64,000 nt of DNA, from NCBI GenBank assembly GCA_035771165.1, contig JAWNZC010000320.1:1778001-1842000 (forward strand), in the 5' to 3' direction. This stretch comes from Paragorgia papillata (Eukaryota > Cnidaria > Anthozoa > Scleralcyonacea > Coralliidae). The notes under the pieces are model-generated. The model was not told where the DNA came from, ran no database searches, and worked only from the letters and a program-made list of their open reading frames with translations. Both the position numbers and the translations under genes were made by a program. Shown one piece after another: positions 27,853 to 53,765 of this stretch; position 1 is the stretch's first letter; each line of letters begins with the position of its first letter.

Positions 27853-29858
27853 GGTAAGGTTGTCTCATACCAACCCGTTTGATCTCTTCTAAGCTGCTCT
27901 TCGAATTCATGATAAACAGTTTTCTGATCATTTTCATTTCTGTCCGCAAGTCCGAGGACATCTAATGAACATAACTGTTCATAATCAAGGGTGCTGGATT
28001 GAGTTAACAGGATGGGCCCATCCCTTTCCTTCCCTGGAGACATCACCGTCCAACCAAGGAGGGTCTTCTCAGCGACCGGCTCACCTGGGCACCCCACCTT
28101 CTGGGCTGCAGTGGTTTTAATCTTGGCGTAATCACTGACCCCGAGGACGAGGTGAATAGGTATTTGTGTACGGGTGTCAGGGTCTTCGAATTTTGCACCG
28201 TTCAAATATTTGTATTTCTCTAAAAGGTGGTTATAATTTGGGTTGGGGAGTGTCATCAATTCAGGTTTGTCGACTTTTGACACTTCAATTCCAAGTTCGA
28301 ATTTCTGATCTAGTGATTTTATGTTAGTAGCATAAATTTCTACTCTGGTGGTGGTGGATCCCAACATCATTTCAATTCGTTTTGTTTTAACAGCTTTGGG
28401 TTTTTTCTTCAATGCATTGGTTAGACTACTGGAAGCATAAGAGCTCCCAGCCCCAGTATCCAGCAGTGCATGGGTCTTAATGCCATCTATATCAACAAGC
28501 ACCACTGGATAAATAACTTCGCCATCCCCTCCGGTATGAGCTGTTTTGACTATTTCATGCTCATCTACTTTGGGTGCATCACAAATTGACGTATGATGTC
28601 GTCTATTGCATAGTCGACACTTCGAGACACTCTTACATTCAGATGCCCTATGGGAGGGCCCTGTGCAATTAAAGCACAGGCGCTTTGCAGCTAGAAACCT
28701 TTTCCGGTCCTCGAATGTCAACATTGTGTCACACTCAGCAGACCTGTGACTCTCAGAATTACAATATACACACTTTCGAGAACTTTTACTTATCTGATTA
28801 TTTTGATATGGCTTCTGTTGTGTTGAGAACTGATACCTGCCATGTCTTCGCTCTGGTTTCTTCTTCCCATCATCTGGTTTCTGCACTTCGACTGGATTCC
28901 TTCGAGTCCACTGTTGCAGTGCTTCGGTTAGTTGTAGATAATTCCATTTATCCCAATCTGGGTCGTTCCGCACTAGATCACCCCGTATATTTGGCAATTT
29001 ATCCAGTGTCATGGCAACAGTTCCATTCACAGCATCCAATTGTTTCATTGTCTCAAGTGACTGTACACAATAGGATAATTTCTCATAGAAATCATGGATC
29101 TTTCTTGGATTTGATGTTGTTGTATATGGAAGCTCAAGAATTTCTTTGACATATGTTTTTACTATCTCACTCTCTTTGCCAAATCTATCCTTGAGAATTG
29201 AAATTGCTCTGTTATAGCCCTCTGCAGTGAATGGGAGAGCCTCGATCGCACGTTTCACTTTGTCACATAACAATTCTCTTAAATATGTAAATTTCGTCAC
29301 AGGTGGTGCACTTGTTTTATCAATAGTCTCAGAAAATTGTCCCCAAAATCTCGGCCAGTCCCCGTACGATCCATCGAATACTGTAATTGTCATTTTGGGC
29401 AGTCTCGCCTGTACTTTTGAGCTAGAATTTTCACTTGACTTCGCTTCATTAGACTCTGGTTTCAAATGCTGCGCTTGTAATTTCATTTTAGCCTCGTAAA
29501 GTTCCATTTCAAAGTTCATTTTCTTCTTCTGATCGTCGTCTTCGCGTTTCTCTCGTGTTTTGCTCAGCCACTGTTCTAGAATGTCGATTTTCTCATCGCC
29601 TTCGTTCATTTCACTCTCCATTTCACTGATCCATGCGTCGATCTCGTCACTGTTGTCCTTTGCGGTTAGTTTCTCTACTTCGACTGTTCGTACTAGTTTA
29701 CTAACGTCTTTTAGTATTTCTCGCAATGTCCCGATATGTCTTTTGATAGCACTCTCTTTTCCCGTTGATAATATCGTCTCTGTTTTCCCCCTAGCTCTTC
29801 CGAGTTGCACAAGTATCGTCGTCAATTCAACGATTGATTCTGGATTTTTATCCGCCAT
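27795..29858 (-). CDS. gag: BEL/Pao Gag and aspartic protease
   Basis: 687 codons from ATGGCGGATAAA. A coiled-coil-like charged N-terminus (residues 1-140) precedes the BEL Gag core (DUF1759 type) with PKMTITVFDGSYGDWPRFWG, FTYLRELLCDKVKRAIEALP and LTEALQQWTRRNPV (about 150-330). Three CCHC knuckles follow: CVYCNSESHRSAEC, CFNCTGPSHRASEC and CRLCNRRHHTSIC (about 365-430). The protease has VLVDIDGIKTHALLDTGAGS with the DTGAGSSY active site (about 455-480). The frame ends out of register just after LPWKGNHP, where pol should continue; the cause is one missing base in a homopolymer. The start is chosen because it is the first ATG after the leader, 35 bp from the insertion point. Confidence 0.93.
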   Translation of the reverse strand: MADKNPESIVELTTILVQLGRARGKTETILSTGKESAIKRHIGTLREILKDVSKLVRTVEVEKLTAKDNSDEIDAWISEMESEMNEGDEKIDILEQWLSKTREKREDDDQKKKMNFEMELYEAKMKLQAQHLKPESNEAKSSENSSSKVQARLPKMTITVFDGSYGDWPRFWGQFSETIDKTSAPPVTKFTYLRELLCDKVKRAIEALPFTAEGYNRAISILKDRFGKESEIVKTYVKEILELPYTTTSNPRKIHDFYEKLSYCVQSLETMKQLDAVNGTVAMTLDKLPNIRGDLVRNDPDWDKWNYLQLTEALQQWTRRNPVEVQKPDDGKKKPERRHGRYQFSTQQKPYQNNQISKSSRKCVYCNSESHRSAECDTMLTFEDRKRFLAAKRLCFNCTGPSHRASECKSVSKCRLCNRRHHTSICDAPKVDEHEIVKTAHTGGDGEVIYPVVLVDIDGIKTHALLDTGAGSSYASSSLTNALKKKPKAVKTKRIEMMLGSTTTRVEIYATNIKSLDQKFELGIEVSKVDKPELMTLPNPNYNHLLEKYKYLNGAKFEDPDTRTQIPIHLVLGVSDYAKIKTTAAQKVGCPGEPVAEKTLLGWTVMSPGKERDGPILLTQSSTLDYEQLCSLDVLGLADRNENDQKTVYHEFEEQLRRDQTGWYETTLPWKGNHPHFQLMRMAVSDG

Positions 29859-29893
29859 ATTGCTTATTGTATTCGTTGTTTTCTATAAATCTC

Positions 29894-29901
29894 CATATAA
29901 C
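29894..29901. repeat. Target-site duplication of the inner DNA transposon, left (CATATAAC)
   Basis: CATATAAC lies next to the left terminus and again at 49,364-49,371 next to the right terminus. Both copies are in the BEL leader. Eight bases is the duplication size reported for Zisupton/KDZ elements. Confidence 0.88.
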
Positions 29902-30020
29902 GATAGGCACTTATAGTACGTATTCCATAAAAGGGCATGAGTTGCGTAATGTGAAAGAGCAAATACACGACGCTCAATGGCATATACGCGACTTTAACGA
30001 GCAAATACTTGACGTTTCCA
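29902..30020 (+). repeat. Left terminal inverted repeat with three 21-bp iterons
   Basis: Starts GATAGGCACTTATAGTACGT. CCATAAAAGG (29,924-29,933) fits the CArG form CC(A/T)6GG. Iterons at 29,958, 29,979 and 30,000 share the pattern AGCAAATAC-x-x-GAC (the middle one is diverged: GGCATATACGCGAC). These are candidate transposase-binding sites, and they lie 50-110 bp upstream of the transposase start codon, so they may also act as its promoter or repressor region. Confidence 0.8.
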
Positions 30021-30070
30021 GTGCCTGCGCAATGTTGGTTAGCTTTATATGGCTGAATTAGGATTGCAAA

Positions 30071-31673
30071 ATGGCGGAAGAACGAACTAGCCATGCACAT
30101 CCATTGGCGCATCCATCTATTTATTCAAATGGTGGAACTTGCGATTTCAGTCTTTTGCGTTGTGGTCGGGCTGACTGTGGGACTGAAAATTGCAATGGAA
30201 GACTGTATCACTGCCCATTATGTCCTCCAAACAAATGTGCTAAAGAACTTCCTTCGCGAGTAAAGGAACATTTTAAGAAGGTCCACTGGGAAAGCAGAAT
30301 TCATGAATTTCCAGGTATAATTTAAACGATGATTGTTAAATTTCACGTCATTGAAAATCCATGCATAATATTAATTTTAGTCATGTGGCCACGAAATGAT
30401 TGAAAAGATGGTACAATCACAGAATAGGATTCTGTGGTACAGTATTAAAGGCTGATATTTATATAAACTACAAAATACTGACGTTTTGAGTGTAGCTTTT
30501 CATTTATTCAGAAAAAGATGTTACTCTACAGTACAGTCAGTACTGAATGGTTAATATTCTTTACTAATCTTCACTGAAATGTCAGTATCTCGTTGTGCTG
30601 TACAAAATATCTGCACTTCACCACCTTTTCACTTTGTTGAATATCAGAGCCACTGCCTACACTTTTTGTGTTCTTAGAAAATAAAAATGTGTTCTCAATG
30701 TACAGAGTGTATCTCTGACAAGTTCTTGGTGGAAATAGTAAAGTTATGACTATAAATCTTGTGGATATATTAACCCATTGCTGCCTAGAATAATCCAGAT
30801 AGGTGTCTGAGGATTCTTCTTTGAATGAGTACAATTGTCTGGCATTTATGACAAGAGTAAAACAAAAAGACTGTTTTTGTCTGGCTCAGGTGGGAATGGG
30901 TATTGGGTGAAAACATCTGTACACAAATCATTTAACCATTAATTGTAAGAGTTGATTATGCTTGTCCAGAATAATCTGAACTGACATACATTTGGCTGAT
31001 AGGCCAACAGACCATTTGGCCAACCAGGTTTGATCAACAGATACCTCTTTAGCCAGGCCAAAAAAAATATATGGATTTCCCATTTCCTGACCCTACCTAG
31101 TTTTTTTTTCAGCAAAATGCCAATCCTGAACTTTTTATTTGAAGAGTGGGGGGCCTGAGTTGCAGCATGATTTGCACATTGGGATAGCAAGCTGCATAAT
31201 GGCAGAACCTAGTAATGTGCTCAAATGTGCTACCATGCTGTAATTGATATTTGGTTTTGGACTCTAAATAATGACTGGGCTCTAAATATAAAATAAGTAA
31301 AAAAATAAAAATCCAACCTACCCTTCCTAAGTTTTTCTGAATAGAAATAGGAAATCCCAGTATTTTTCTTTGGCCCCAGCATAAGAAAAATTCTTTGTTT
31401 TTTTGTGCTGAACTGTTTTACATCATGACATATCCCAAATTTCTTTTTATATGATTTAAGGTTTAAGCATTCTGAGATGCAAACTGTCCTGCACATTCCC
31501 ATCAAGCCGGCGTGGGTCGGATGACAAGAATTTAAAGGATATCACCCACTATCACTGTTTTGGCTGTAATTGTGGATTTAAGCGTCGGAATGAAGCAATT
31601 CGGCACATTCGTAGCACACATAATGTTCAGCTCTCAATGCAGCCATTATGTTCAGGGCAACAACAACAGCATC

Positions 31674-31717
<44 letters not shown>

Positions 31718-31829
31718 ACACAGCTTCAACAACAACAGCAACAACAACAACAACAGTACTCTGCAACAACAACAACAACAGCAGTTGCAACAACAACAGG
31801 ATCAACATCAACAGCAGCAACAACAACAA

Positions 31830-31884
<55 letters not shown>

Positions 31885-32069
31885 AGCAGCAACAACAACA
31901 ACAGCAGCAACAACAATAATAACAGAAGCAGCAGCAACAACAACAACAGCAGCAGCAATAACAGCAGCAACAACGGCAGCAACAACAGCAGCACAACAAC
32001 AGCAGCAACAGCTAGAACAACAAATGCAGCAACAACAGGAAACAGATCAACATTTGCAATCCCTACAGC

Positions 32070-32103
<34 letters not shown>

Positions 32104-35100
32104 GACACTGTCACAAGAGCAACAACAGGACACAGATATTACAACTGCATTTGACAATCAGTCATTTCAGGAGCTTGAGTTCCGATACAGATCTGCTCAA
32201 TCAAGATCAATGCGACAACAGCCAACCAGGGTTAAATGTCCATTCTCTGATTGTGGCAGAGAATTCCATCCAAATTCCCTCTCAAGTCACATTAAAACAA
32301 AGCATGCTGTAGATGAAAGAAAGGGAATAACATCAACAAGATACTTGAATGGAACTTGTGTTGATTATACAAATGGGATTTATCTGGTTCGCAAACAATT
32401 GCGAGGAACGGATCATCCTATTCATTGTCAATTCAAGACCTCAAGTCCTGCCTCGATAATTTGTAGTGTGGATACCTGTCGCCAGCTTAGCAATACTGCT
32501 TCTAGAAGTGGTCAAGCTAATTTTCTTTGTGATCATCTGAAATCCACCCATTTTATTGGCACTTCAGTTGTTGCTGATCGCTTAAAAGAACATTCTCTTG
32601 ATTTTGTGATCAATACTTTAAAATGGTTGAAATTGGAGCGGAAATCAGAATGTTTGGAGTGGCAGAAGCAAGCTGACCACAACAGAATTCCACTTGTTGT
32701 ACAAATGCCTGTTACACCAGATTTTTCTACTCGTTTTTTCCACTTTTCAGTATTTGCCAACATCAAGAGAGATCATTACTGGTCATTTTGTAAACGTGTG
32801 GTGGTTTCATTTGACAAAGAAAGCTCATCCTTCCACTGCAAGTGCTGCACTTCTCGCCGCTCCTGCATGCACAAGTGCCTTGTCAAGTGGGCAATTGGGC
32901 AGTGGCATCCTTCTGTTATTGGTGCATCTAGGATACTGCAGATGGATGAAGAGATTGGCGACACTCTAGATTTTACTGCAACTGAGGAAAATGTTGCTGA
33001 TGAGCACTTACATGTAGATGAAGATAACAACAATATACCTGGCAGTATGTTTTACCCTCCAGTTGGAGATGTTGCTGTCAAGTTTGTTAAATACTTGTTG
33101 AGTGAGAAGAAAATCCCTGCACAACTCCCATTAGCCTTAACAGTTCAGAAGGAAAATTATGGTAAAAGGTAAAATACTGTAGATAATTGCATGATGTCTG
33201 ACCCACAGTTGTTTAATTTGTATGTTGGAAGATAAATTATTAGTTAAATAGTTCAGTTGTTGGATCAGTTTAGTCATGATAGAAGTCATGTGTATGCATG
33301 TATTGTATTGTATTGTTCTGTTTGTGGTAATATGATAATATAGGTTATGTCTGCTTTATCGCGAAAACTTGCTTACTGAATCTACTATTACAAAAGTTAG
33401 CAATTGTTAATTAGAATTGACCAATCAGCTTAGTTCTCAAGATTGCAACAAAGAAGGAAGAGAATGTTCATTGATGCTCTAATTTTGAACAGTACTGTAA
33501 GTGATAATTTGTGGAAACGTTTTACAATGCAAACATTTAAGGAATTTATCACTTATCAGTTTTAATTTACAATTATGTAGAGTTTTGTAATCATGGGTAT
33601 TGGCTATTAAGTTGGTTAGCCTTTGTGTCAGATGTTTGATTTTCCCCCTAATCCTCAGCCAGTTTGTGCAGTAACTGAAACAAAACAATTGGCTTATATA
33701 CACTTAATAATATGCTTTAATTACTTTTTAGTTATATTCCAACAGAGACTACCTGCTTTTATTGTGAATCACCACTGACTGAGCCATACTGTATCACACA
33801 AAACGCCAAACTAGTGACCCTGAAAGGGATAGTTGAAGGTACATGTACAGTAACGTCATGCATGGTGCTCTTAAGTATGCATTATCTTTTTAAAATCTGC
33901 TATTTTTACAAAATAAAATATCTATAGGATTAGATTGTTAAACATCTCAGTCAACAGTTACTTATTAAGTAACTTCATTATAGTTCTTTAATTAGTTATT
34001 TTAGTTATACTTGAGTCAAACGTTCTTGTAAGTTTAATATTTTATTCTTTTTTTATCTGGTATGAAATAATAAATAACATTCTAAAATTCATTAATAATT
34101 CATGAGGAAAACACAAAGAAAAATCATGAGCGTATCGGATCTATATATGTGATATAGACTTTTTTTCTCGCTGGTTTTTAACGGCTGAGATAAGCTTAAT
34201 TTTCAAAATTACTACGCCAATGAACGTATGAAGTGATTCTTTTTAGAAGCCATTTAAAAACCTTGCAGTACGGGCTTTATCGGCTCTAAAACACTCGGCT
34301 ATCGCCTCGTGTTTTATATCCGATAAAGCCCTCCTGCGCGGTTTATAAATATTACTTAAAAAACTCATTAATAATTCATGAGGAAAACACAAAGGAAATC
34401 AGTACCATGTCCGTGGTTTTATATCTGATAAAATTTTCTTCTGATTTACATAAACTTTAGCTTTGATTTTCTCGCCTTAGACAACGTTATTTTTCAAAAT
34501 TACTACGCCAACGAACTTGCGAGTGATCGTTTTTTTAAGCCATTCAAAGCACTCGCAGAACGTGTTTTATCAGATCTAAAACACTCGCAGAACGTGTTTT
34601 ATATGTGATAAAACACTCCTGCTCGTGTTTTAAATAGTACGTAATACATTACTATGACTTATATTACATGTATATTTGGTTTGTTTTTTTATTATCTCAG
34701 GAGTTTCTTTATATGCAAAGTTTTGTGACAACTGCAAGCTTCCATACAGATATCAGGAGTATTCTGATGGTGTTCATAATTTCAATGACAACTGGATCCT
34801 TAGTATTGGATTATGTGATATGATCAGAAAACATCTCCAGGTGTGTCATTGTGATTATTTAATTTGTTTATATACCTATTTGCTTATACCTATTTGCGGT
34901 AGATCTTTATGGACTTTGTATCTATCACTCCATCTTTCATTTTTTAATTTTATTGTTCTTCATCAGTTTGTTGAAAATATATACAGTATACTGATACAGT
35001 AATACATGTACATGACTTGTATATACGATTATGCTGTTACCGTTACAGTACACTGTGTGTGAGTTCTTTAGTGAATAAATGTATTTTGAATGAGGAGCAA

Positions 35101-38100
35101 GCTGCTGTAAATAAAACTTTTGTGTAGTAAAAATATGATGTCTTTTGAATGTTGTTTCAGGTTCACAATGCTGTAAGCCGAACAGTTGAAGCAATTGAAA
35201 ACTGGCTGCAGTTGCGACCATATCAATTACCTCGCGGTTCAATGCTGAATGCGTACCTTCATTTTGAGGCTCTTTCAGATCACAGCTATGATTTTTCGTG
35301 CCTTATGTGTGGATACTTTCCTCCATTGTTAACTTTAGATGTGGACAAGAAAGGAGTGTTTGAACTGGCAGGTAAACTGCATGTATCATCCAGGATTGTT
35401 TTAGCCTGCGTGCAAACTTAAATTTTGAGTCTGTAGGCAGGCTAGAATTGCTTGTGTCATTCGTTTTAGTGCTTAAAGGATTAGAAAAGGCTGTACTACT
35501 GTAGTATATTACTTTCAGATTAATGATTTGTTCATACTAGCTGTATTTTGTCCTTTTTACAGTAAGTGAACTTGAGCTACCAGACATACATTCTAATTCA
35601 ATTCCGGATAAAGTTGATGCTGATATGTTCTGGCAACAAGTCAATCTCGGGATATTATACAGGGGCATACTGAGAGGTATACGTACTGTAGTTAATATTT
35701 TTCAATACGCTAATGACGTCTGACATGTTTCTGAAAAAAATGGCTAATTTAAAAAAAAGTTTTTCATTAGAGCCTTGCTTTCCCTACGTACAGAACTTTT
35801 GTATTGTAAATAGAGAAATTTATTGCAGTAAAACTGTATAAAGTCAGTGCTTGAGTGTCTTATTTTGTTATCAAAGCAATCCTGTAATTGTGTTATGTAT
35901 AATCATTTTTGATTTACATGTACATTCAGGCACTGAAAAGAATCCCTTGGAAATCAAGCCAACCTACAAGTTCTGGGCCCCATTTATTGGCTCCAAGTGC
36001 AGAAGAGGACGACAGCTTTTTTAACTCTGAATTTAGGAAAGCTAATCACAAGGAGGACCTTAAATCTGCTGGCGCTACATCTGACAACTGCTCTATTGAG
36101 AAACTGATGGATTTGTTCTGTGAAGGGAAAGTATGTTACGCTTTGTCACACGACGACATTGTAGATACAGTAGAATGTAGAATGCTACATAGTTTTATAT
36201 TTTTTTATTATTGCTTGTCAGGTCCCGGTAATTAGAGAAATGGCTAGAAGTTTAAACGTGAGTGATAAGGGTTCAAAGCTGGACATCATTAACCGAATAA
36301 AGTCTGTTCTCAACATTGAAGAAACTTTCTTGAAACTCTTTTCTAAAATGTGGGGTGGTTCAGGTAAGACATTTTTTTTATAAATGTTGTGAATTCATGT
36401 GGGAATTATTGCTTTATATATATATATATATCGATATATAGTAAGGTTAGATATACTGCCGAAACAGAGAACGTGGGAGTCTAACGTTTCGAGCGAAGGC
36501 CCTTCGTCAGAGAGAATATCACACGGGTGATAAAAATGCTATATTCTTGGACAGCGGTGCACATTGTTTTTGTATCTACTGCGCATGCGAATAGATACTT
36601 TGTTGGCATGGAAGGTTTTCCTATGTTAGTTAAATAACAATAGAATATTTTCCCGAGTCAGTCCGAGCAATCTGACGCAGTGGATACATGTACGCCTAAG
36701 CGTGCCTATTTTTATCACTCGCTGTCCTGATAAAAGCAAGTACAGTGGAACCTCATTATCTCGAACTCGGTTATCTCGAACAAGAGTTGATTTCCCTTCA
36801 GCATATTTCTTCACTGTTTTACAGTATAATTTATCTCGAACCCCCGCTATCTCGAAGTATTCTTTACCTCCCTTGAGGGTTCGAGATAGTGGGGTTCCAC
36901 AGTATATGCTAAACAGGTTATCACATTCGTGACTCTGTGATATCAATTTTATCACTTTCATAACGATATCATAATTGTCCCTCGTTCACTGCCCTCACAC
37001 AATTATGATATTGTTCCCCAAGCGATAAAACCGATATCACGTCATTCTTCATATGATAACCTATACTTCTAAAGATTAATAAGTGCATTCTCGCTGACGC
37101 TTCATTGACTGGTGTCCTTTTCACGCGAAAAGGTGCAGGTTCAACTCCTGTGGGATGACCTGAAGTGGGGTGTACAGTACGTTATACAATGTTAGGTTTT
37201 GGCATAAATTTTTTATTATATTTATAACTGTGTAAATTTATTTTCTGTTTTGTGTAAGGTGGGTGGCTAGGAATGACTTGCCCGCATGGAATATGCTACG
37301 GACTAAAGTGGCTTTTGAGACATGAAGGACCTCGGGATCATGTGGATATGGTAATGAACCTTGCTGCACTTCCGAATGTTATTGTGTTGGACATGGCAAA
37401 CATGATGGTCGCCCATGCTAGAAATAGAGGCTACAACGTTTTCCAGCCATTTGAAGGTCGTGTTGCTGAATGCACCCCAGAGAACATCCGAAAGGCAAAA
37501 GATGGTGAGCTGGAGATTGACTGGCCCTGGTTTCCCAATGGCGTGGAACAGGACACAGGAGATGAAGTTGAGAGACCTGATGGTGAACAGCTTCTACGTA
37601 ACCCTTCGACTGGATCGTCAGATCATTATTGCTTATTTGATCAATTTCATGAAAAAAATTCTGTTGATCCAGCTGATTGTTTACGTAGAGTGTCGTGCGT
37701 CAACCAACTTGCTGGGAAGACCAATTCAGAAACGGCTGAACAACTGAACAACAGAAGGAACCGTGACAATTACTTTACAACATCTTTGACAGCACACAAT
37801 TCGGTATTTGTCGAAAGGTTGGCAACTCATTTTAATAATGAGAAGACAAATAGACGCGTCATTGTTAGCCATAGTCGACAGGTAAATTAATATTTAAGGA
37901 GACGAGTGGAAAATATTTATGAGAACAAGGAATGGCAGCGAGGACATGAACGCGAAGAGTGAGTGATTTCAGAGCTATCTTTCGAGTTCTCCCTAATTGT
38001 CACTCGTGATTCTATTACTTTATGGGACCAAGATATTTCTTTTTATAAAACAATCTTGAGAAAAACAAATAAAACTAACAAACAATCCTTTTCATCAAAA

Positions 38101-39543
38101 TGTAAATTATCTTTTCTCACGATACATGTAGATCGTTTGCAAACGATGTCACGTGATTGCAAACGACCTATAAAGCCTGGTTTTCACTAGACGTAAGCGT
38201 GAGCATAACGACGTATACGCAAGCGCAGTAAGCACTTCAAGGTCAATTTAACACTTTGTTTTCCCGAAATTCAAAGGTGTTCATCTACCATGAAGTGCTT
38301 ACTGCGCTTGCGTATACGTCGTTTATGCTTACGCTTACGTCTAGTGAAAACCAGACTTTATTGGCAGACGTCGAAAACTTTGGAATTCGTAAACCATTAC
38401 CTCGTAGAAATTTGATTTCGATCTCGTAATTTTTACAGCAAATTGTCGCGCATGTTTTTGAAGTTTTATTTTTTTAGATTATTGTGTGCTTATTTTACCG
38501 GTTTGCTGAATTTTCATTTGTGTATTCATAAATGTTTGTTTTTCTCTTTCTAGTTTGGAGAACAGCTAAATAGAGATTTGAAAGGACAACTGGTAGTTGG
38601 TGACATCATTAAGCGAAGTAAAGTTCAACCACCTAATTCCAAACGAGCAAGGGTAGACAGTGTTGAGACGTCTTCACAATGTTCAGCTTCATCGACGATT
38701 GGTGCAGTGGTTTCATCTGTGATAGAAGTATTAGATACTACAACTACCCCAACTTACTCTAGCCCTAATTCATCCTCATCTATCTCACCTGTGTCGTTCT
38801 CTTCTTCCATAACACCTTGTGCAAGCGCCGCCGTTAATCCATCCTCTACTATATGTGCTGAATCAGTCTCTATTAATAATTCAGCACCTGACTTGGGCAC
38901 CACATCTAAGCCAGACGAAGCTGAAGTTTGTGGAAATGTCCGTTTTCTTAAAGTTGCTGGAACATGTGTGTCGCTGTGGCTATTTCCCGAAAGATTTGGC
39001 CAGTCTGCTACTTGCCTCAATACGTGCAACACTAGTACACTTACAGCTCTTCTTCTAGGGCACATATGGCTGGCAACAGAAGGTAATTTCCCAGAGGATG
39101 GACCTCTCCATCAATCCTGGTTTTCATCGATTCTGTATGCTACGAGAACCGGGATTACATTATCGAACGAATCTGCTGATGGTGCACGTACACTGACCTT
39201 AGAGGAAACCACATCATATTTATGTAGAAGTCGTTTGATAAGTATCGTTTTGCATCCAGCAACAATCGTCCGAATGAATGACGCCAACCCCTCATCACGT
39301 TTAGCGCACCACCTGGAAGAAATGGTTGGCAAGAAGGCAGCGCTCTTTATTTATGCCAAGAAAGCTGTCTTATTCTTGTCATCTAACAGCAGCTTGATGA
39401 TGGTCGACAGCCACAGGAATGGAAACGTTGGTGCAGTTATTGTAAAGGGGAATACTAATGAACTGCCACAGTTCCTCAAGTCGTTAGAAAGCACCCTTGG
39501 ACTTAACGAGTACTGCTACGGAAATTTTGTTTGTTTCACCTAA
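30071..39543 (+). CDS. KDZ/HMGXB3-like transposase gene, 10 exons, about 1,490 aa
   Basis: Exons with consistent GT-AG borders and phases: 30071-30314, 31461-33168, 33732-33838, 34701-34840, 35161-35371, 35563-35676, 35930-36130, 36222-36363, 37259-37881, 38554-39543. Domains (approximate residues): C2H2 finger HYHCFGCNCGFKRRNEAIRH (111-135), Gln/Thr-rich tract (148-300), C2H2 CPFSDCGREFHPNSLSSHIK (338-364), SWIM finger HCKCCTSRRSCMHKCLVKWA (528-563), CxxC pairs TTCFYCES and FCDNCKLP, SAP-like VIREMARSLNVSDKGSKLDI (910-940), transposase core with candidate acids in LLTLDVDKKG (about 794), VIVLDMANMMVAHARNRG (about 1,002) and NSETAEQL (about 1,116), and a C-terminal DSH peptidase-like domain. 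The core resembles HMGXB3-like and KDZ transposases (recalled). One break: a T6 run in exon 7 shifts the frame; a downstream donor at 35,688 offers an alternative intact reading. Confidence 0.82.
31659..32110 (+). repeat. CAA/CAG-rich coding repeat (poly-Gln/Thr tract)
   Basis: About 450 bp of CAA and CAG triplets with frame slips, all inside exon 2 of the transposase gene. In the gene frame it encodes Gln runs, then Thr/Ala-rich, then Gln-rich segments without a stop. The opposite strand gives spurious Leu/Val/Cys-rich frames. Confidence 0.95.
34075..34640. repeat. Two tandem palindromic MITE-like copies in intron 3
   Basis: A copy at about 34,080-34,352 (TTCATTAATAATTCATGAGG ... GCGCGGTTTATAAATATTAC) and a partial copy at 34,365-34,640 in the same orientation. 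Each contains GGCTTTATCGG...CTAAAACACTCGG...GATAAAGCC, a hairpin. A third copy, reversed, is at 53,766-54,050 outside the nest. Confidence 0.75.
36017..36022 (+). other. T6 run that breaks the transposase frame in exon 7
   Basis: Upstream, the phase from exon 6 reads NPLEIKPTYKFWAPFIGSKC then RRGRQLF and a TAA at this run. Downstream, the frame one base over reads NSEFRKANHKEDLKSAGATS and joins exon 8 in phase. All ten exons sum to 4,480 bases, one more than a multiple of three, as expected for one extra T. Alternatively, a donor 11 bases after the usual one in exon 6 (ACT|gtagtt) enters the second frame directly and avoids the stop. Confidence 0.65.
36486..36512 (-). ncRNA. Hammerhead-ribozyme-like core in intron 8
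   Basis: The minus strand reads CTCTGACGAAGGGCCTTCGC then TCGAAACG. CTGACGA, a short stem-loop (AGGGC/GCTC-type) and GAAAC are the conserved core elements of type I hammerheads that occur in Penelope-like terminal repeats and retrozymes of invertebrates. Stem III and the cleavage triplet are not clearly assignable, so it may be a decayed copy. Confidence 0.35.
36743..36902. mobile_element. Tigger/pogo-like MITE in intron 8
   Basis: CAGTGGAACCTCATTATCTC at the left and its reverse complement ending GGGGTTCCACAG at the right, flanked by TA on both sides (36,741-42 and 36,903-04). The CAGTGGAACC terminus and TA duplication are typical of pogo/Tigger-type elements. Length 160 bp; non-coding; it contains four TTATCTCGAAC-like words. 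Confidence 0.75.
38171..38360. repeat. Palindromic MITE in intron 9
   Basis: TAAAGCCTGGTTTTCACTAG and CGACGTATACGCAAGCGCAG are mirrored by CTGCGCTTGCGTATACGTCG and CTAGTGAAAACCAGACTTTA; arms are about 70 bp around a 45-bp spacer. Confidence 0.8.
38554..39543 (+). other. Exon 10: C-terminal DSH cysteine-peptidase-like domain
   Basis: Last exon of the transposase gene. After a Ser/Thr-rich linker (to about residue 1,290) it reads VCGNVRFLKVAGTCVSLWLF, then FGQSATCLNTCNTSTLTALL (candidate Gln-Cys box) and, near the end, AVLFLSSNSSLMMVDSHRNG followed by NVGAVIVKG. A Cys near the domain start and a D-S-H triplet after a hydrophobic strand fit the arrangement of OTU/tegument-DUB-like (C76-type) peptidase folds. 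This is pattern matching by eye. A domain of the same kind occurs in the Helitron-like fragment at 23.9 kb. In a transposase it could act on ubiquitin-like modifiers or process the protein, but no function is shown. Confidence 0.5.
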
Positions 39544-41154
39544 ATGTATTTGCACACGCGCGATTTGAAATCGCATTAACGAAAGTGCGATAAAAATTGC
39601 AGTCAAATCACGGCAAAAATCAGTCGCCCGTCTTAACACTTTTATGTTTTGAGCTAAAGCTAGCATCTGCCGTACGCTTTAAAGATTTTGTCAATACTTA
39701 AATCAATCGCATTGCTATTCTGGTTGGCTACTGTTTTCCAACCACAAAATTGTCAGTCTTCAGCTACATGTTTTATCCATAGGTTTTTATTGTTTTCGTT
39801 TCTATCAGTAAGCTTTCAACAACTAGATAATGTAAATGTAATAATGTAATGTACAAGAACTTCTTTAACTTTGAAAACAATTTTGTTTTATAAAACTGTA
39901 GGAGAGTGAGGAAACACCTTAAACTGTTTATATTGTAAATCATATATATTTTTGACAGAAGATATATAGCTTATGAGAAGTTGTGAAGTGCTATAACGTT
40001 AATTGTTATATATCAAGTGTCAAAGACCATTTTTCTAGCTTTCTGATTGGGCGAGCGGTACTCGCGTGCAATGGCGGTCCGAAATCGTGATGTTTCCCGC
40101 GTAACCCATGGCAGCGGGCAACATTACATTTATTTTCGTGTGTTTTGTGGCCCCTCGACTGTTCGCTGTTGCCCTCGATCGGCTTCGCCTCGGGAAACAA
40201 CGGTAGTCTCGGGGCCACAAATCAAACTGTTTCCCTCGGCGCCATCATAGTCAATCGAGATATGGTCTGGAAACTCAGCTAAAGTCTTTAGTCTATCTTT
40301 TTTGTTTGCCTTTATGCATTTTTGTGCACGGTGTACTGTCACTGAATTACACATTGTATTTTAGTATAAGGAGCGAATTGTCCAATAGCAACGTTTCAGT
40401 TCAATCACTCAACCGTGCTATTTACATATTAATAAACCTAAAACAAAGGATGTGCACGGTGTAAGGTACGGTTCAACATAAAATCACAGCTCATTATAGG
40501 CGCTTTGAAGTTTGCCGAGTTTCCAGACCATATCTCGATTGACTATGGCGCCAGTAAATAAGTGTTAATTATTATATGGCTAGGTAATTTACCATTTCTA
40601 TACAGTATGGTAGGTAATGGAACCTCCACTGGCGTTGTAAGAAGACTGTAGATTGAGCGCTATACTTAATGGTGTTTATGAATACAAGCAATTAAAAAGA
40701 ATCTGTCCACGCTTCAATGTTTTCTCAAATATACGTCAAACAAATGTTATTTGTATAGGTAATAGCATGGTTCCGAGTGCAATATTTGGAAAAAACATGC
40801 ACGAGTGAGTTTTTCAAAGACTACCAAAATTGCACGAGTCCGAAGGACGAGTGCTATTTGAGGTCTTTGAAAAACTCACGAGTGCGCGTTTTTTTCAAAT
40901 TGCAAAAGAAACGATGCTATTACTTATTAATAATATACATAAAAAAATTTAACATGAAGAGAAACTTTCCAATCAAACTGCTTTGTGCAAATAACATACA
41001 TGAAAAAATTTAACAGGAAGAGCTTTTTTTCTAGTCAAAAATGATTTTTGTACAAATTTAAAAAAATTAAAACTTTGCACTGTATTTCCTTTTTTCTGCA
41101 CTGTATTTCCTCAAAACTGCACTGCTCTCAGCCAATCAGAATAAATAATTCATG
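39544..41154. other. Post-gene region with two palindromic repeats
   Basis: No gene. A 45-bp inverted repeat (GCCATCATAGTCAATCGAGA ... at 40,240-40,283 and its reverse complement at 40,509-40,553) brackets about 310 bp. A second palindrome at 40,755-40,935 contains GTGAGTTTTTCAAAGAC/GTCTTTGAAAAACTCAC around CGAGTCCGAAGGACGAG. AATAAA at about 40,432 is a possible polyadenylation signal for the transposase gene. Confidence 0.5.
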
Positions 41155-44105
41155 TATATTATTAGATATGAAACTACTTGGTTATATGTGGTTAATATTT
41201 ACAGTAATTGTCTGCATATGGGCTTTTCACCTAATATGGGCCGTTTTTACAAAAGATGGAAGGACTACACACCAAATTGTCTGAAATTTTGATATGAAAC
41301 TACTTTCACAGAGTTAAGACCCTGGTAAAAAAATCAGGAGAAAATACAAAGTCCGACTATGTGTTCAAAAACCTGCCATATGTAGTTAATATATACAGTA
41401 TACATATGGGCTTTTCGCCTAAAACGGGCCGTTTTTACAAAAGATGGAAGGACTGCACTAAATTGTCTGAAATTTTGATATGAAGCTACTTTCATAAAGC
41501 TATGGCTATAGTAAAAAAATCAGGAGAAAATACAAAGTCCGACTATGTGTTCAAAAACCTGCCATATGTAGTTAATATATACAGTATACATATGGGCTTT
41601 TCGCCTAAAACTGGCCGTTTTTTACAAAAGATGGAAGGACTGCACCAAATTGTCTGAAATTTTTATATGAAGCTACTTTCATAAAGCTAGGGCTATAGTA
41701 AAAAAATCAGGAGAAAATACAAAGTCCGACTATGTGTCCAAAAACCTGCCATATGTAGTTAATATATACAGTATACATATGGGCTTTTCGCCTAAAACGG
41801 GCCGTTTTTACAAAAGATGGAAGGACTGCACCAAATTGTCTAAAATTTAGATATGAAGCTACTTTCATAAAGTTAGGGCTATAGTTAAAAAATCAGGAGA
41901 AAATACAAAGTCCGACTATGTGTTCAAAAACCTGCCATATGTAGTTAATATATACAGTATACATATGGGCTTTTCGCCTAAAACGGGCCGTTTTTACAAA
42001 AGATGGAAGGACTGGACCAAATTGTCTGAAATTTTGATATGAAACTACTTTCACAGAGTTAAGACCCTGGTAAAAAAATCAGGAGAAAATACAAAGTCCG
42101 ACTATGTGTACAAAAACTGGCTATGTGTAGTTAATATATACAGTATATATGGGCTTTTCGCCTAAAACGGGCCGTTTTTACAAAAGATGGAAGGACTGCA
42201 CCAAATTGTCTGAAATTTTGATATGAAGCTACTTTCATAAAGCTAGGGCTATAGTAAAAAAATCAGGAGAAAATACAAAGTCCGACTATGTGTCCAAAAA
42301 CCTGCCATATGTAGTTAATATATACAGTATACATATGGGCTTTTCGCCTAAAACGGGCCGTTTTTACAAAAGATGGAAGGACTGCACCAACTTGTCTGAA
42401 ATTTTGATATGAAGCTACTTTCATAAAGTTAGGGCTATAGTAAAAAAATCAGGAGAAAATACAAAGTCCGACTATGTGTTCAAAAACCTGCCATATGTAG
42501 TTAATATATACAGTATACATATGGGCTTTTCGCCTAAAACGGGCCGTTTTTACAAAAGATGGAAGGACTGGACCAAATTGTCTGAAATTTTGATATGAAG
42601 CTACTTTCATAAAGTTAGGGCTATAGTAAAAAAATCAGGAGAAAATACAAAGTCCGACTATGTGTTCAAAAACCTGCCATATGTAGTTAATATATACAGT
42701 ATACATATGGGCTTTTCGCCTAAAACGGGCTGTTTTTACAAAAGATGGAAGGACTGCACCAAATTGTCTGAAATTTTGATATGAAACTACTTTCATAAAG
42801 CTAGGGCTATAGTAAAAAAATCAGGAGAAAATACAAAGTCCGACTATGTGTTCAAAAACCTGCCATATGTAGTTAATATATACAGTATACATATGGGCTT
42901 TTCGCCTAAAACGGGCCGTTTTTACAAAAGATGGAAGGACTGCACCAAATTGTCTAAAATTTTGATATGAAGCTACTTTCATAAAGTTAGGGCTATAGTT
43001 AAAAAATCAGGAGAAAATACAAAGTCCGACTATGTGTACAAAAACTGGCTATGTGTAGTTAATATATACAGTATATATGGGCTTTTCGCCTAAAATGGGC
43101 CGTTTTTACAAAAGATGGAAGGACTGCACCAAATTGTCTGAAATTTTGATATGAAGCTACTTTCATAAAGCTAGGGCTATAGTAAAAAAATCAGGAGAAA
43201 ATACAAAGTCCGACTATGTGTTCAAAAACCTGCCATATGTAGTTAATATATACAGTATACATATGGGCTTTTCGCCTAAAACGGGCCGTTTTTACAAAAG
43301 ATGGAAGGACTGCACCAAATTGTCTAAAATTTTGATATGAAGCTACTTTCATAAAGTTAGGGCTATAGTTAAAAAATCAGGAGAAAATACAAAGTCCGAC
43401 TATGTGTACAAAAACTGGCTATGTGTAGTTAATATATACAGTATATATGGGCTTTTCGCCTAAAATGGGCCGTTTTTACAAAAGATGGAAGGACTGCACC
43501 AAATTGTCTGAAATTTTGATATGAAGCTACTTTCATAAAGCTAGGGCTATAGTAAAAAAATCAGGAGAAAATACAAAGTCCGACTATGTGTTCAAAAACC
43601 TGCCATATGTAGTTAATATATACAGTATACATATGGGCTTTTCGCCTAAAACGGGCCGTTTTTACAAAAGATGGAAGGACTGCACCAAATTGTCTAAAAT
43701 TTTTGATATGAAGCTACTTTCATAAAGTTAGGGCTATAGTTAAAAAAATCAGGAGGAAATACAAAAGTCCGACTATGTGTTCAAAAACCTGCCATATGTA
43801 GTTAATATATACAGTATACATATGGGCTTTTCGCCTAAAACGGGCCGTTTTTACAAAAGATGGAAGGACTGCACCAAATTGTCTAAAATTTTGATATGAA
43901 GCTACTTTCATAAAGTTAGGGCTATAGTTAAAAAATCAGGAGGAAATACAAAGTCCGACTATGTGTTCAAAAACCTGCCATATGTAGTTAATATATACAG
44001 TATACATATGGGCTTTTCGCCTAAAACGGGCCGTTTTTACAAAAGATGGAAGGACTGCACTAAATTGTCTGAAATTTTGATGTGAAACTACTTTCACAGA
44101 GCTAA
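41155..44105. repeat. 186-bp satellite array, about 16 copies, inside the DNA transposon
   Basis: The unit runs from GATATGAAGCTACTTTCATA through AAAAAATCAGGAGAAAATAC, CCTGCCATATGTAGTTAATA, GGGCTTTTCGCCTAAAACGG and AAAAGATGGAAGGACTGCAC. Two sub-types exist: most copies have TTCAAAAACCTGCCATATG, while those near 42,105, 43,035 and 43,407 have TACAAAAACTGGCTATGTG and lack one CA step. The last two are exactly 372 bp (two units) apart, suggesting dimer amplification. The first and last units are the most diverged. No open frame. Confidence 0.95.
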
Positions 44106-47100
44106 GACCATCTCAGTTTACGCCAATATTTCTTCCAGTCATGAAATGCGTTTCACAGTGTAACACTTCTTGTGTTGCATGCAATTGCAATTTTGCCTGA
44201 ATCATTGCATGACAAACTGTAGTAAAACTCGGTAAAAGGGATTTTTTAAAATAAGGTTACTGTGCAGCTTATTTAACTAACTTACCTCACTCATAGGGAA
44301 TACTGTCAGTCAAAGTAAAGCTTGAATGTTGATTTATCGCTTGTTGATCACGTTCGATAATATAGTGACGAAAATCCTTCCCAATACTTCCTAATAGTAC
44401 AGTTACGGTTCCGAACATGTTCCATTGGAACCAGTCTTTATCTACCTGCGAGTACGCTCTTCATCGTGAAGTGGTTTTGAATTGAATCAAAAACAAAATA
44501 AGATACAAATTAGTCGTGAAGATCTTGAATATGTATTGTTGGAAAACAATCAGGTCAGTCGCGTCCCAAGAGATGCTTGTTGTTTAATTGTTTAACAATT
44601 AATTAAACTCGAATCAAACAAAGATAATGATGGACTGAGGCTATAACCGGGACACTAATACAATATTTATCACATGAATGTTTACATTTCTAACTTCGAA
44701 CGTTTCATTCTCGTACAGTAAAGGCATGGCTAAGCGTAACAACTTAGTTATACAACATCAGGCCGTAAATACTAAATGCAAATTCTGTTCCACAAATATA
44801 TACGAAAATATAGCACAAGTTTACGCCATATTTTTAGGTTCGTTAAATGTGGGGAAACAGTTTGCATTCCGTTTAACATTTCCCATTGCAGGATGCTATA
44901 CAACAATGTTTGAAAACCGAAAGCGAAGCTTAAATATATGAAGTATAAATATTATAGATGTTTAATCAGCGCTCGCTCGTGTTATAAATAATCTTAAAAC
45001 TGAACGCGAAGCTAAAACGTCCACCCGAGGCCCACGGCCGTGAGGTCGTTCTGCGTTATGGTTCACTTGGAATATAATAAAATGCTTTATTTGGTGTTTA
45101 TGCAATGTAGTAACTACATGCTTATAAAGAACCCCAACATCATGTAAGAAGAGCATCAAATATAACGCACGGACATGTGAAGAATCAACCATATTTTACC
45201 CACTTGTAGCTATCTCTAATTATTTTGTTTCATACAAGAGTTACACCTCAAGGCGCAAAGCATTGGGCTATAGTGCGCCTTTTTGGCATAGTGCCTTCCC
45301 AATAAAAAATAAACAAACATGTAGCTCTTTCATTTATTATCATTTACATTAACACCGAAAAATGTAAAATACGATTTTTATAAAAAATATAACTGCCCGA
45401 AGAATTTCGGGCGTCCAAAAGTTTTTGTGCTATTGTTTCATAATAATGACGAACTCTGTCGGATTAAGTTCTGAACATGGATTACATTTTCTTATATCAA
45501 CAAATTTTGCGACAATGATATGCAAATGACTTTGCTCAATTTGTAGTTCAAATTGGTAACATTGAAGGGTATTTCAACATTTATAGTTGACGAATACGCG
45601 TTGAATCGCGTGTGGTGTGCTTCTGATTTACATATATAGCGGTATATAGTCTATCAGATAGAGCTGTAATGTATAAATATACTGTAGCTATTAAAATAGG
45701 TTATTTTAATATCTAGTTTAGATTCCTATAGTGACAAATTCCTACATTACGCTGTTGGCTGTTTCGTTATTTATCAAGGTGATAGGAATCGAACCTATCT
45801 AGGATGGTTTACTACAGTATAATCCTGCCCACCAGGGACCATTTTTTTAAAAAAGTAGATGGCGCAAACTGTGTATATACACAGTTAAAATATAATAATA
45901 TAAAATAATGCCGTGCTGCGTACTATAGTCTACATGTGTAGTAGTAATTAACTGACTGATGAATATCAAAATTTGGTCAATTCGTTTCTGAGAAAATCAC
46001 ATTTAAAGATGTCCATTTGTGATATAAAGCCGCAAATTAAAAAATGAGCAACTTGTGATGTAGCTTAAGGATGCATTTTATATAAGTAACCCAACACTAT
46101 ACTGACAGCATGTTTTCTCTGCATGAACATTACAAATTAGTATTTCGTTTTTCACTTTGCTCTATCTGAAACACTACCTACGCAGCACTCTAAACCTTCC
46201 AAGCACTAAGTGACGTCACGTCACGTACATAAACATGACAATACAGTATTTGGGAATGTTTGAAGAGAGATACCTGTATTGAATCTCCGAAACAAATAAA
46301 CTAAATCAAAAATTGTAAAAGAACTAAACAGAGCTTATGCATGGCACCTCACCGTAAGTTATTTGGAATATCCAAACTTATTAACTATATATTTCAAACC
46401 AAATTTATTGCACTCAGAATGTAGCACTTGGAATTTATGATCACTTGTAATACTGTATATACAATTCTCACATTCATTTGCATACCTGTACTCTGGAGGA
46501 AATAATGACAAGACTTCACTGCAAGTAAAAAAATACTTACTTTACATGTAAATGTAACACCATGCAGTTAGACTAGTAAGACGTAGCTATTTCCATCAAT
46601 TTCCTGATGAATAACTTTCAACTTTTTTTCACAGAGCTTCCCCCCCCCCCCCCCCCCATTTTTTTGACATACAAGTGCATTAAGTACAGTTATTTATAGT
46701 CAATAATTTCACTACAGTACGTATACCACTGATCTCTATACAACAGTTATATAGAGATCAGTGACGTATACGGTATCTTGTCAGATATATATAATTTCTA
46801 TTTATAGTAATTAAGTACTTTGGTGTTGAATCAAATATACAGTATATAAACAAAAACATTCAACCACACATGTTAAGTGATGTTCATTTAATGTTCCAAA
46901 ACTGTATCAATTCTAGTTAAGCATAAACTAACTTAAAAACAAATTTTAAAATGCTGATAACAAACAACCGTTTTTCAATTTGTTGCATTATGCTACTTGT
47001 ACAATTTTTATGCTTCATGTTCAAACCCTGGAACATGGGCATTCAGGGATTTACCCACAAAAAGATGAGTGCCAAGTAAAAAGATCCTGATTTGATTATG

Positions 47101-49240
47101 ATTGCTGGAAAGTTGAGTGTTTACATCATTAAAATATTAAACAAACATATACAGTATATGTTTTGGCCTTTGGGTAAAAATGTGCTGGACAACAATATTA
47201 CAACTCTGAATACCAAGAGTTTAAAATTTGTGCCAGGTTGTTCCATCCAAAATGGCTACATTTTTCAAGCAATATTACAACCTGGAAAAAAAAAGTCTTA
47301 GAGTTGGCCACAAAAATATCTGGTATATGGCAGAATAACCTAGCCTGTGCTGCAAACTACACCAAAACCCAGGTTATATTACATGCATCTAAGAAAATTA
47401 GTAAGAGCCAAAATAATTGTTTTCGACACTCCTACAAGCAGCATAATTTCGTACTCTCAGTTGATCATATGATTGGCTGCTTAAAAATGCTTGCTGAAAA
47501 ATATTTCTTAGCAGCTCTTTTGCACAAAATTACATTTCACTATTCAGGCAAAAGTGAGTGTAAAGATTTAAAGTGCCTTTCACCTCTACAGGGATTTAAT
47601 ATACAGTGTATTTATGATATTTGGAACATTCTGAGAAGAAATGTAATATATCTTCTCAGACAAAATCTTCATCTTCATGGGCTTTTTCACTGTCAAAGTT
47701 AATGGATATGATGTCTACCAGGAATTGCAAACCAGTTTTCTTTTGTTTCAATTCCACAAGTATTCCTGGTGAAAAAAAAAGGATTCTTTTTTTGATCAAA
47801 TGTAGATTTAATTTTTTTTTCTCTTCAATAACAAGCTTTTACATTTTTCTTCATTTTTTTATTGAATGAACCACAAACAGCTGAACCAACAAGTTGCCTT
47901 CAGAGCTGCAAGATGCAATACTTGTCAAAGCTTTTGTTGGTAACTTGTAAATTTAGTGCATGTGTATATTGTGTAGGCAATAGAAAAGCCAATGACAGGG
48001 TTCCTTATTTAGACCTATCACAATCAAGTTCAAAATAATGCTTGTCACCAGGTGTCAACAACAAGGGTTACACAAATAACTTGTTTTATAGTCAAACACA
48101 GTGCATGCAGACTAGTAGCTAGAATAATGGTTGAATATTTTTCAAATTTTCCAGAAAATCTGATATCCAACCAGATAGTAACATTAATATCCCCTATTTA
48201 ACATTAATTTCCCTTATTTTGTATTAATGTTTTCTGTTCCTTTGATAAGTTATTGGCACTGTGCAGTATCTTTGCCAAACATGTACTGTAACGATTGAGA
48301 ATATATTAATTTGTACAACTGGCCGTATTTTCACCTGGTCCATAATCTTACCAAACTACACTTTTTAACCCATTGCTGCCTGAGCCAGCCAAAAACAGCT
48401 AGCTGCTTCAATATTTTACTCTGTCTAATGCCAGATGATTTTACTCATCCAAGGGAGAACCCTCAGACAACAGTCTAGACAGTATTACGGTAAATGATTA
48501 ACATTAGTGATTAACCCATTGCTGCCTGAACCAGCCACTTTAATATTTTACTCTAACATTAGCCAGATAATCTTACTCACCCAAGGGAGAACCCTCAGAC
48601 AGTCTAGGCAGCAATGGATTAATTGGCTAAGCTGAGAAGCAGTCTGTGTCAGAATAGTACTTACCTAGTTACCTCCCTGCAAAAAGGGTAAAACCTTCAG
48701 CTAGAAAAAGTGACAGTATAAACAAATAAAACTAGCAATGGATCAGATAGCAACATAAAAGTTAATATCGTGACGTTCACATCTTCAACATTCATTTAAT
48801 AATTTTTGTAGTCCTATATTATTATTTTAAACAATTATAACGGTGAACGGTCATCTCCGCTCGCATATATAGACCACTTGCAACTGTTCTCTTGGTGTTA
48901 CAGTATAAATAACTCGCGCTCTGTTAAACGTCGGGAGCGACGGGCTTTAAAATTGTCCTCCTGATGGACCGTTTTATATAACGTCATGTGGGACAGTGCG
49001 AGAGGACTACATTGCGAGCCACGCAAAATTTTTCAATCTTCGTCGTGCATTTTGCAAACTTTCTAATCTGGTAAAATATAGGTGTACAGTGTGTACGTAC
49101 CTGATTAAATATAAAGCTATACTCCATACATCATTCCTCGTGAACGATTCAACGATAACAAAGTAAAAATTCCAAATAAGCCCGCCATATTGAATGATCG
49201 TGCCACCTCAAATGTAGCTTCGCGGTTGAAAGACTTGAAC
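44106..49240. other. AT-rich right arm of the DNA transposon, no gene recognised
   Basis: No convincing frame. The ORFs at 44,678-44,941 and 47,238-47,702 have no motif and look like chance. Visible features are a C17 run (46,637-46,657), a hairpin at 46,730-46,765 (CTGATCTCTATA...TATAGAGATCAG), and two inverted units with TTAACCCATTGCTGCCTGA/GGCAGCAATGG at 48,366-48,621. A related TTAACCCATTGCTGCCTAG occurs in intron 1 (30,772). Confidence 0.5.
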
Positions 49241-49244
49241 CTAC

Positions 49245-49363
49245 CCAAGACGTCGTGTATTTGCTCTTCTCAGTCAAGTATCTGCTCATGAGTGTCATGT
49301 ATTTGCTCTTCCATTGCCCACGCCTACATTCCTTATATGGCATACGTACGGAATATACATATG
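49245..49363 (-). repeat. Right terminal inverted repeat with three 21-bp iterons
   Basis: Read on the minus strand it starts CATATGTATATTCCGTACGT, has CCATATAAGG (a perfect CArG form), and carries iterons ending at 49,307, 49,286 and 49,265: AGCAAATACATGAC, AGCAGATACTTGAC, AGCAAATACACGAC. The first iteron is at position 57 from the end, exactly as on the left. Confidence 0.8.
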
Positions 49364-49371
49364 CATATAAC
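49364..49371. repeat. Target-site duplication of the inner DNA transposon, right (CATATAAC)
   Basis: Identical to 29,894-29,901. What follows (ACGTTCAAAAGG) is BEL leader leading into the PBS. Confidence 0.88.
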
Positions 49372-49392
49372 ACGTTCAAAAGGTCGTCAAAT

Positions 49393-49410
49393 ATCCCGTC
49401 GGAGGTGCCA
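49393..49410 (-). other. BEL primer-binding site
   Basis: On the minus strand TGGCACCTCCGACGGGAT begins two bases after the 5' LTR. Its complement (ATCCCGTCGGAGGTGCCA) looks like the 3' end of a tRNA, including terminal CCA and the start of a T-arm. The tRNA species cannot be named from this alone. Confidence 0.8.
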
Positions 49411-49412
49411 CG

Positions 49413-49651
49413 TGTCCTAAATTCTCGCTTCCGCTTAAGATTGTATCCAGGGCAAATCACATACATAAAACTAAACTTTAATAATAATAAAATACGACAA
49501 ATGTCTCACTGTTTGCGTTCTCTTCTTCGCTTGAATCTCGCTCGCAACCTCTCCCTCCCATGAAAAGTGCTTGACTCATCAATACCTCATAACGTTCGCG
49601 CCGTCTTCGTTTACCTTCGGAAAGTTCCGGAAATAGGCCCAGTTCATTACA
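49413..49651 (-). repeat. BEL 5' LTR
   Basis: 239 bp, identical to 24,254-24,492. It is followed on the plus strand by GTAT (49,652), the right copy of the target duplication. Confidence 0.93.
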
Positions 49652-49812
49652 GTATAAATCTAGCCGTGGAGGTAGCTCACAATATAAACAATCTACCCGT
49701 GGAGGTAGCTCACAATATAAACAATCTACCCGTGGAGGTAGCTCAAAATATAAACAATCTACCCGTGGAGGTAGCTCAAAATATAAATCTACCCGTGGAG
49801 GTAGATTAAAAT
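49652..49812 (+). pseudogene. Helitron-associated peptidase-like fragment, 3' piece with 33-bp tandem repeats
   Basis: The frame interrupted at 24,253 resumes here as SGINLAVEVAHNINNLPVEV and continues with AHNINNLPVEVAQNINNLPV to a TAA at 49,810. The DNA is a tandem 33-bp unit (CTACCCGTGGAGGTAGCTCA + CAATATAAACAAT), about four copies, giving an 11-residue protein repeat NNLPVEVAHNI. Similar NLP-x-V repeats are known to follow the peptidase domain in related Helitron-type proteins (recalled). The TAA ends the frame before any helicase region. Confidence 0.6.
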
Positions 49813-50715: not shown

Positions 50716-50719
50716 TTTT

Positions 50720-51395: not shown

Positions 51396-51442
51396 ATGCA
51401 AACATGCTTAGGCAGCACTTTCCTTGCGATAGTAACTACTAG

Positions 51443-52500: not shown

Positions 52501-52544
52501 CCCCCTTCTTTTGGGGTCTTGATGGGCTCAATAGCATATTTGGG

Positions 52545-53549: not shown

Positions 53550-53616
53550 CCCACCATCCCTCCCTTTAATCAAAAGCTATTTCCACCGATAAAATCGGTG
53601 TGATTGGTGTAGACGG

Positions 53617-53759: not shown

Positions 53760-53765
53760 CATATG

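Follow-up and report, generated by a model that had tools for sequence, protein, structure and literature searches.

The locus and the element

A 64,000-nucleotide stretch of the Paragorgia papillata genome (contig JAWNZC010000320.1, positions 1,778,001 to 1,842,000 of the forward strand; hereafter the window) contains a large DNA transposon with a ten-exon gene, inserted within a BEL/Pao retrotransposon. The element very probably represents a recently active autonomous transposon family of 17–25 kb, encoding a spliced DDE transposase of the animal "HMG domain-containing protein 3" lineage and related to the KDZ (Kyakuja-Dileera-Zisupton) superfamily. Its mobility is deduced from the ends, the 8-bp duplications, the insertion into a young BEL element, near-identical copies, a related empty site and two unbroken genes. 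The family is young, large and mobile, whereas the copy in the window is not intact.

The termini were examined using random-pair controls. An exact 8-bp target-site duplication, CATATAAC, abuts the element on both sides, as an earlier reading of this sequence (the original prediction) had stated, and matching abutting 8-mers occurred in none of 20,000 random position pairs. In a gap-free inverted alignment, the ends of the window copy matched at 77 of 119 positions (i.e. imperfect inverted ends), as compared to a mean of 32 and a maximum of 53 matches for 20,000 random internal pairs from the element, in agreement with the predicted alignment over about 119 bases. The motif GTACGTAT lies at position 15 of each end, as had been proposed. 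Each end also has three iterons, 21 bp apart, beginning at positions 55, 76 and 97, and the first of them starts two bases before the predicted position 57; their consensus is AGAGCAAATACnnGAC, with 10 of 21 columns identical across all six units. Chance repeats as the source of the ends and duplications were ruled out by both controls and by the recurrence of the ends in the genome.

Copies of the element in the genome

The assembly (617,864,297 bases, i.e. 618 Mb) was searched with the left 159 bp of the element and all 16 candidates were scored, the counts being lower bounds. At least 16 matches to the left end were present, including the window, and four of these (again with the window) were 100% identical. 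Fifteen matches started at the same base and one began four bases in, whilst two retained only 83–87 bp. The 14 long left-end copies were 88–100% alike over their first 1.2–1.7 kb. Right ends were covered at ten places (outside this set fall the C424 match and two C473 matches, as well as C323, which is cut off by the end of its contig). The right end was present at eight of these ten expected places, with the last 40 bp identical to the window in all eight, and was not found within the fetched stretch for the C367 and C105 copies. Nine copies had both ends (window included; C12:300k and C12:295k counted once) and measured 17,483–24,615 bp, indicating that the large size is a trait of the family. 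The prediction of an unusually large mobile DNA transposon was thereby borne out by the duplications, the recurring ends and the sizes of the copies.

Exact 8-bp duplications (i.e. CATATAAC, GTACATAG, CACTGCAG and CTTTCCAG) flanked four of the nine two-ended copies, a fifth copy had a duplication matching at 7 of 8 positions and four were without any duplication. When ends from different copies were compared in 72 pairings, one pairing matched at 8 positions and none at 6 or 7; this single match, between the C14 left end and the C265 right end, hints that sequence was exchanged between copies or that the assembly switched from one to the other. The site of the C12:354k copy has a diverged, empty counterpart in the flank of C12:300k (89.6% identity over 251 columns on one side and 94.1% over 68 on the other). 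The alignment runs straight across the insertion point, where CACTGCAG is single; the site is a paralogous one at a different locus. Between five copies, the introns differed by 0.47–1.65%. The genome search with the left end that had been proposed in the original prediction has thus produced further copies with 8-bp duplications and one related unoccupied site. Three further copies with exact duplications contradict the idea that no other locus carries these termini with 8-bp repeats, and the 16 left-end matches contradict the idea of a conserved single-copy host gene.

The C12:295k copy shares a 300-bp flank with C12:300k, the two left ends lying 4,850 bp apart (C12:293747-301755), and the arrangement looks like a local duplication of the flank plus the 5' part of the element.

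The putative transposase gene

The gene has GT-AG borders at all nine introns, and the intron phases are consistent, as translation continues through exons 1–7 as far as a frame break and again through exons 8–10 (Table 1). The predicted structure of ten exons with in-phase GT-AG introns was upheld, and the one-base break in exon 7 had been overlooked. Reading frames on either side of this break were set by the sequences of relatives. Exon 7 was open in all four of the other copies that fully cover it (C206, with partial cover, was left out). A check of all exons in four other copies found C413 (1,479 aa) and C146 (1,493 aa) to be open from start to stop, C461 to be broken in exon 9 and C12:354k to have two unmapped exon edges. 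Among five copies, the ratio of non-synonymous to synonymous differences (pN/pS) stayed below 1 (0.26–0.62) for nine of the ten pairs and was 1.42 for the remaining pair, which has three silent changes. As assembled, the window copy is unable to make the full protein, and the claim of an intact element does not hold for it. The frame breaks may plausibly stem from sequencing error, since the frame of the BEL element is likewise interrupted at a homopolymer.

Table 1. Coordinates of the transposon and its parts in the window
Feature	Position	Strand	Remarks
Whole transposon	29902..49363	+	19,462 bp; target-site duplications, inverted ends, genomic left-end matches
Target-site duplication, left copy	29894..29901	.	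CATATAAC, exact 8 bp
Target-site duplication, right copy	49364..49371	.	CATATAAC, exact 8 bp
Left inverted end, 119 bp	29902..30020	+	GTACGTAT at 15; three 21-bp iterons from 29956
Right inverted end, 119 bp	49245..49363	-	GTACGTAT and iterons at same distances as in left end
Exon 1	30071..30314	+	Start codon, Cys-rich N terminus; matched by N termini of relatives P0001 and P0021
Exon 2	31461..33168	+	C2H2-like fingers, Q/T-rich tract, SWIM-like CxC...CxH (~32837-32872)
Exon 3	33732..33838	+	Part of CxC4
Exon 4	34701..34840	+	Part of CxC4 (CxC4 ~33161-35196, exons 2-5; PF18717)
Exon 5	35161..35371	+	Putative first catalytic Asp, D793 (35338-35340)
Exon 6	35563..35676	+	
Exon 7	35930..36130	+	One-base frame break in window copy, T run 36017-36022
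Exon 8	36222..36363	+	SAP position, assigned by alignment and the model of a relative
Exon 9	37259..37881	+	Putative catalytic D1000 (37390-37392) and E1116 (37738-37740)
Exon 10	38554..39543	+	S/T-rich linker and C-terminal domain without match
Long 3' part without recognised gene	39544..49244	+	Pieces also present in other copies

Domains and relatives of the encoded protein

Relatives were sought using the read-through protein without its Q/T tract (E <= 0.001; 7,990 scored). Thirty were obtained, from a sea anemone (45% identity), fishes, a crinoid, an acorn worm and further records, with the fish proteins either carrying the name HMG domain-containing protein 3 or being called uncharacterised. 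In a tree of 31 rows, the window protein grouped with two Actinostola rows (100/100) on a long branch. The cysteine cluster CxC4 (PF18717) was detected in the window protein at 35.8 bits against a cut-off of 26.9 and in 19 of the 30 relatives. Pfam reported SAP in 16 of the relatives, reported neither SWIM nor SAP in the window protein, and scored the finger matches of exon 2 below its cut-offs. The motif in exon 2 is one that we take to be SWIM-like from its pattern, and the position of SAP lies between the first and second candidate catalytic aspartates. The prediction of a SWIM/SAP transposase is therefore upheld for the motif and the position and not for the Pfam domains.

Three acidic residues were conserved among the relatives (D793 in 28/30, D1000 in 28/29 and E1116 in 26/26), from which we infer a putative catalytic triad, and the product of the gene is likely a DDE transposase. 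The structure model of a relative aligned to many DDE enzymes of the RNase H fold, with ISCth4 as the best, but Foldseek gave no significant match. Pfam reported an HMG box neither in the window protein nor in any of its 30 relatives, a comparison outside which vertebrate HMGXB3 lies.

Further domains among the relatives were Ulp1 (in four), PHD (in three) and OTU (in one); the Ulp1 and OTU parts of P0004 and P0028 are C-terminal, as read by eye. For the C-terminal domain of the window protein, neither Pfam nor a protein search gave a match, and nothing among PDB sequences scored below E 0.1. Assignment of this domain as a cysteine protease was rejected, as its resemblance to the tail of Actinostola P0001 was no better than that of shuffled sequences (812 of 1,000 scored as high). 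Comparison with the tails of 18 other relatives gave P0014 as the best, with 6 of 200 shuffles as high, and searches with the window and P0001 tails returned nothing beyond the query. A fold predicted for this domain without an alignment was uninformative (mean pLDDT, the predicted local confidence score, of 36.5). The 13 matches from profile searching of the PDB were all weak and mainly to zinc fingers, alongside huntingtin, an RNA-editing protein and one SAP-type protein, which we take to be Hcc-1. In viral collections, none of 22 pattern-matching stretches held a relative of the protein and the iteron pattern matched 18 stretches once each, which was read as chance.

The insertion site and its surroundings

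The insertion lies in a minus-strand BEL/Pao retrotransposon (Peptidase_A17, 143.9 bits). The long terminal repeats of this retrotransposon (LTRs; 24254-24492 and 49413-49651, 239 bp each) are identical at 239 of 239 positions, in keeping with the predicted recent move into a BEL element with identical LTRs. As read by eye from the flanks, the LTRs begin with TG, finish with CA and have GTAT on their borders; the stretches adjoining them are presumably a primer site and a purine-rich tract. The transposon separates the 5' LTR from the beginning of the gag frame. Because it sits inside a BEL element with identical LTRs, its insertion is later than that of a BEL element that is itself young, an age reading that holds unless the LTRs have been homogenised.

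The BEL element occupies 24254-29882 and 49372-49651, and its coding region consists of two frames overlapping at 27795-27864 with a break at a homopolymer. Around it, 21598-23650 and 51393-53759 are apparent halves of a retroelement that we assume to be DIRS-like, with reverse-transcriptase-type text on the left, an RVT_3 match at 51790 on the right and 160-bp repeats of 99.4% identity at 21598 and 53389. A further insertion seemingly lies between the BEL element and the right half (49657-51392). Elsewhere in the window, an inverted 1.1-kb pair of 96% identity with reverse-transcriptase-like frames occupies 7848-10327.

Within the transposon, the 3' part contains a satellite array of 15.5 copies of a 186-bp unit (41215-44096; a 370-bp unit fits too). 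No second gene was recognised in this half, where the longest open frame (174 aa) had no Pfam match and a spliced gene with short exons may escape detection. A repeat of about 280 bp is present both inside the transposon (34080-34358) and outside it (53762-54046) at 96.5% identity, and a 70% relative adjoins at 34345-34644. Intron 9 contains an imperfect palindrome of about 198 bp (38167-38364), with arms 85–93% complementary, which is also present in six other transposon copies. The observed/expected ratio of CpG was 0.72 within the transposon vs 0.96 in the rest of the window; the low ratio may reflect methylation of the transposon family.

Mechanism and alternative explanations

Transposition could proceed as follows. 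The N-terminal zinc fingers and SWIM-like motif would bind the iterons at both ends and the ends would be brought together; D793, D1000 and E1116 would cut and join with a stagger of 8 bp, and filling of the gaps by the host would produce the 8-bp duplication. Cut-and-paste is the assumed default, with the ISCth4-like fold leaving a copying route possible. The window copy may have been moved by the enzyme of another copy or have broken after insertion, or the break may be a sequencing error.

Three observations weigh against an active, KDZ-related family: the frame break of the window copy, the four two-ended copies without a duplication (if taken alone) and the failure of the KDZ transposase domain, PF18758, to match the window protein in two pieces at up to E 5. 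The same domain matched none of the 30 relatives at up to E 0.01. These were HMMER scans of single sequences, and such scans miss remote kinship. The link to KDZ is drawn from the CxC4 cluster, the general anatomy and the duplication length, 8 bp being typical of KDZ elements (7 bp in Kyakuja) and found exactly in the window and three further copies. As CxC4 and duplication length are shared and PF18758 is unmatched, the transposon is called KDZ-related, rather than a proven KDZ member, on these sequence criteria. The original classification as KDZ-type is thereby softened, and the profile search that it had proposed recovered the KDZ-associated cluster and not the transposase domain.

The alternative that survives best, and which we consider somewhat probable, is that of a canonical KDZ member of the Zisupton or Dileera lineage that has merely diverged. 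CxC4 is above its cut-off and recurs in the relatives, and the 8-bp duplication and long terminal inverted repeat (TIR) resemble those of an active fungal KDZ1 in the accessible text of PMC12810828, as the multi-exon gene resembles nematode Zisupton in that of PMC9297572. Against this stands the unmatched PF18758 profile, with the limit of single-sequence scans given above. It appears rather unlikely that the protein belongs to a DDE lineage of its own, closer to IS256/Mutator-like transposases and with only CxC4 in common with KDZ: neither the window protein nor any of its 30 relatives matched a Pfam Mutator/MULE profile, DDE enzymes generally have the RNase H fold and CxC4 points to KDZ. No hAT profile matched the same proteins either (one relative has a weak BED finger); hAT elements also have 8-bp duplications. 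A broader and still more tentative proposal is that animal proteins with CxC4 and SAP that go by the name HMG domain-containing protein 3 could be transposases encoded by giant DNA transposons of a distinct lineage, ranking as a superfamily apart from Kyakuja, Dileera and Zisupton. Such a lineage would combine an ISCth4-like DDE fold, a SAP domain placed after the first catalytic residue and before the second, and interchangeable modules at the C terminus (Ulp1, OTU, PHD or unassigned), would still be autonomous in this animal and would count vertebrate HMGXB3-type genes among its domesticated relatives.

A passenger that is dead or non-autonomous, with no functional enzyme in the genome, would account for the frame breaks of the window and C461 copies but is improbable given that C413 and C146 have all ten exons open and that pN/pS is mostly below 1. 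The least credible explanation, a conserved host gene lying by chance within a BEL element, draws on the annotation of some fish relatives as HMG domain-containing protein 3 and is opposed by 14 long left-end copies, 88–100% alike, with the same end at different sites and with duplications; a domesticated single-copy gene is ruled out by the number of left-end matches.

With an active, KDZ-related family as the preferred explanation, a widespread animal protein family that databases call HMG domain-containing protein 3 or leave uncharacterised is now tied to a specific mobile element, for which the ends, the target duplications, a related empty site and unbroken transposase genes are defined. 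It can now be tested whether enzymes of this lineage remain capable of moving DNA and whether the host genes bearing the name HMG domain-containing protein 3 are tamed transposases. No literature linking Zisupton with HMGXB3, or joining KDZ, the SAP domain and a transposon, was found in a search outside which Repbase and most subscription journals lie, so that an earlier description is possible; the one paper matching HMGXB3 with transposase is listed as concerning pogo-like elements.

Comparison with known systems

The ISCth4 transposase (6xgx, 6xg8), which we take to be of the IS256 type, differs from the present protein in the lack of a sequence-profile match between them; the present protein has SAP between the first and second aspartates and is eukaryotic and spliced. 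The likeness to KDZ elements lies in the 8-bp duplication, the long TIR, the large size and the KDZ-associated cysteine cluster. KDZ elements are described from fungi, fish and nematodes in the accessible parts of the literature (PMC12730594, PMC9297572, PMC12810828, PMC12062965, PMC9926710, PMC3424704, PMC12477816), where one likely KDZ transposase gene is listed for the cnidarian Hydractinia and the present family is not described. Cryptococcus KDZ1, an active fungal element, has a size of ~11 kb, a 241-bp TIR and an 8-bp duplication (PMC12810828, accessible text); the present family differs in its size of 17–25 kb, in having CxC4 rather than CxC1 and in the unmatched PF18758. Ginger1 transposases carry exchangeable C-terminal OTU, Ulp1 or PHD domains, according to the accessible part of PMC2836005. 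These are the same types as in the relatives of the window protein, but Ginger1 has a Gypsy-integrase-like core and is a separate family.

The closest likeness is to the animal CxC4/SAP proteins of Actinostola, fishes, a crinoid and an acorn worm. The core is 45% identical to Actinostola P0001 over 482 columns and ~30–40% identical to the others, with the same DDE residues, CxC4 and position of SAP, whilst their extra Ulp1, PHD and OTU domains differ from the unmatched C terminus of the window protein. These relatives are known here as predicted proteins alone, whereas the window protein is tied to a target-site duplication, to ends and to copies.
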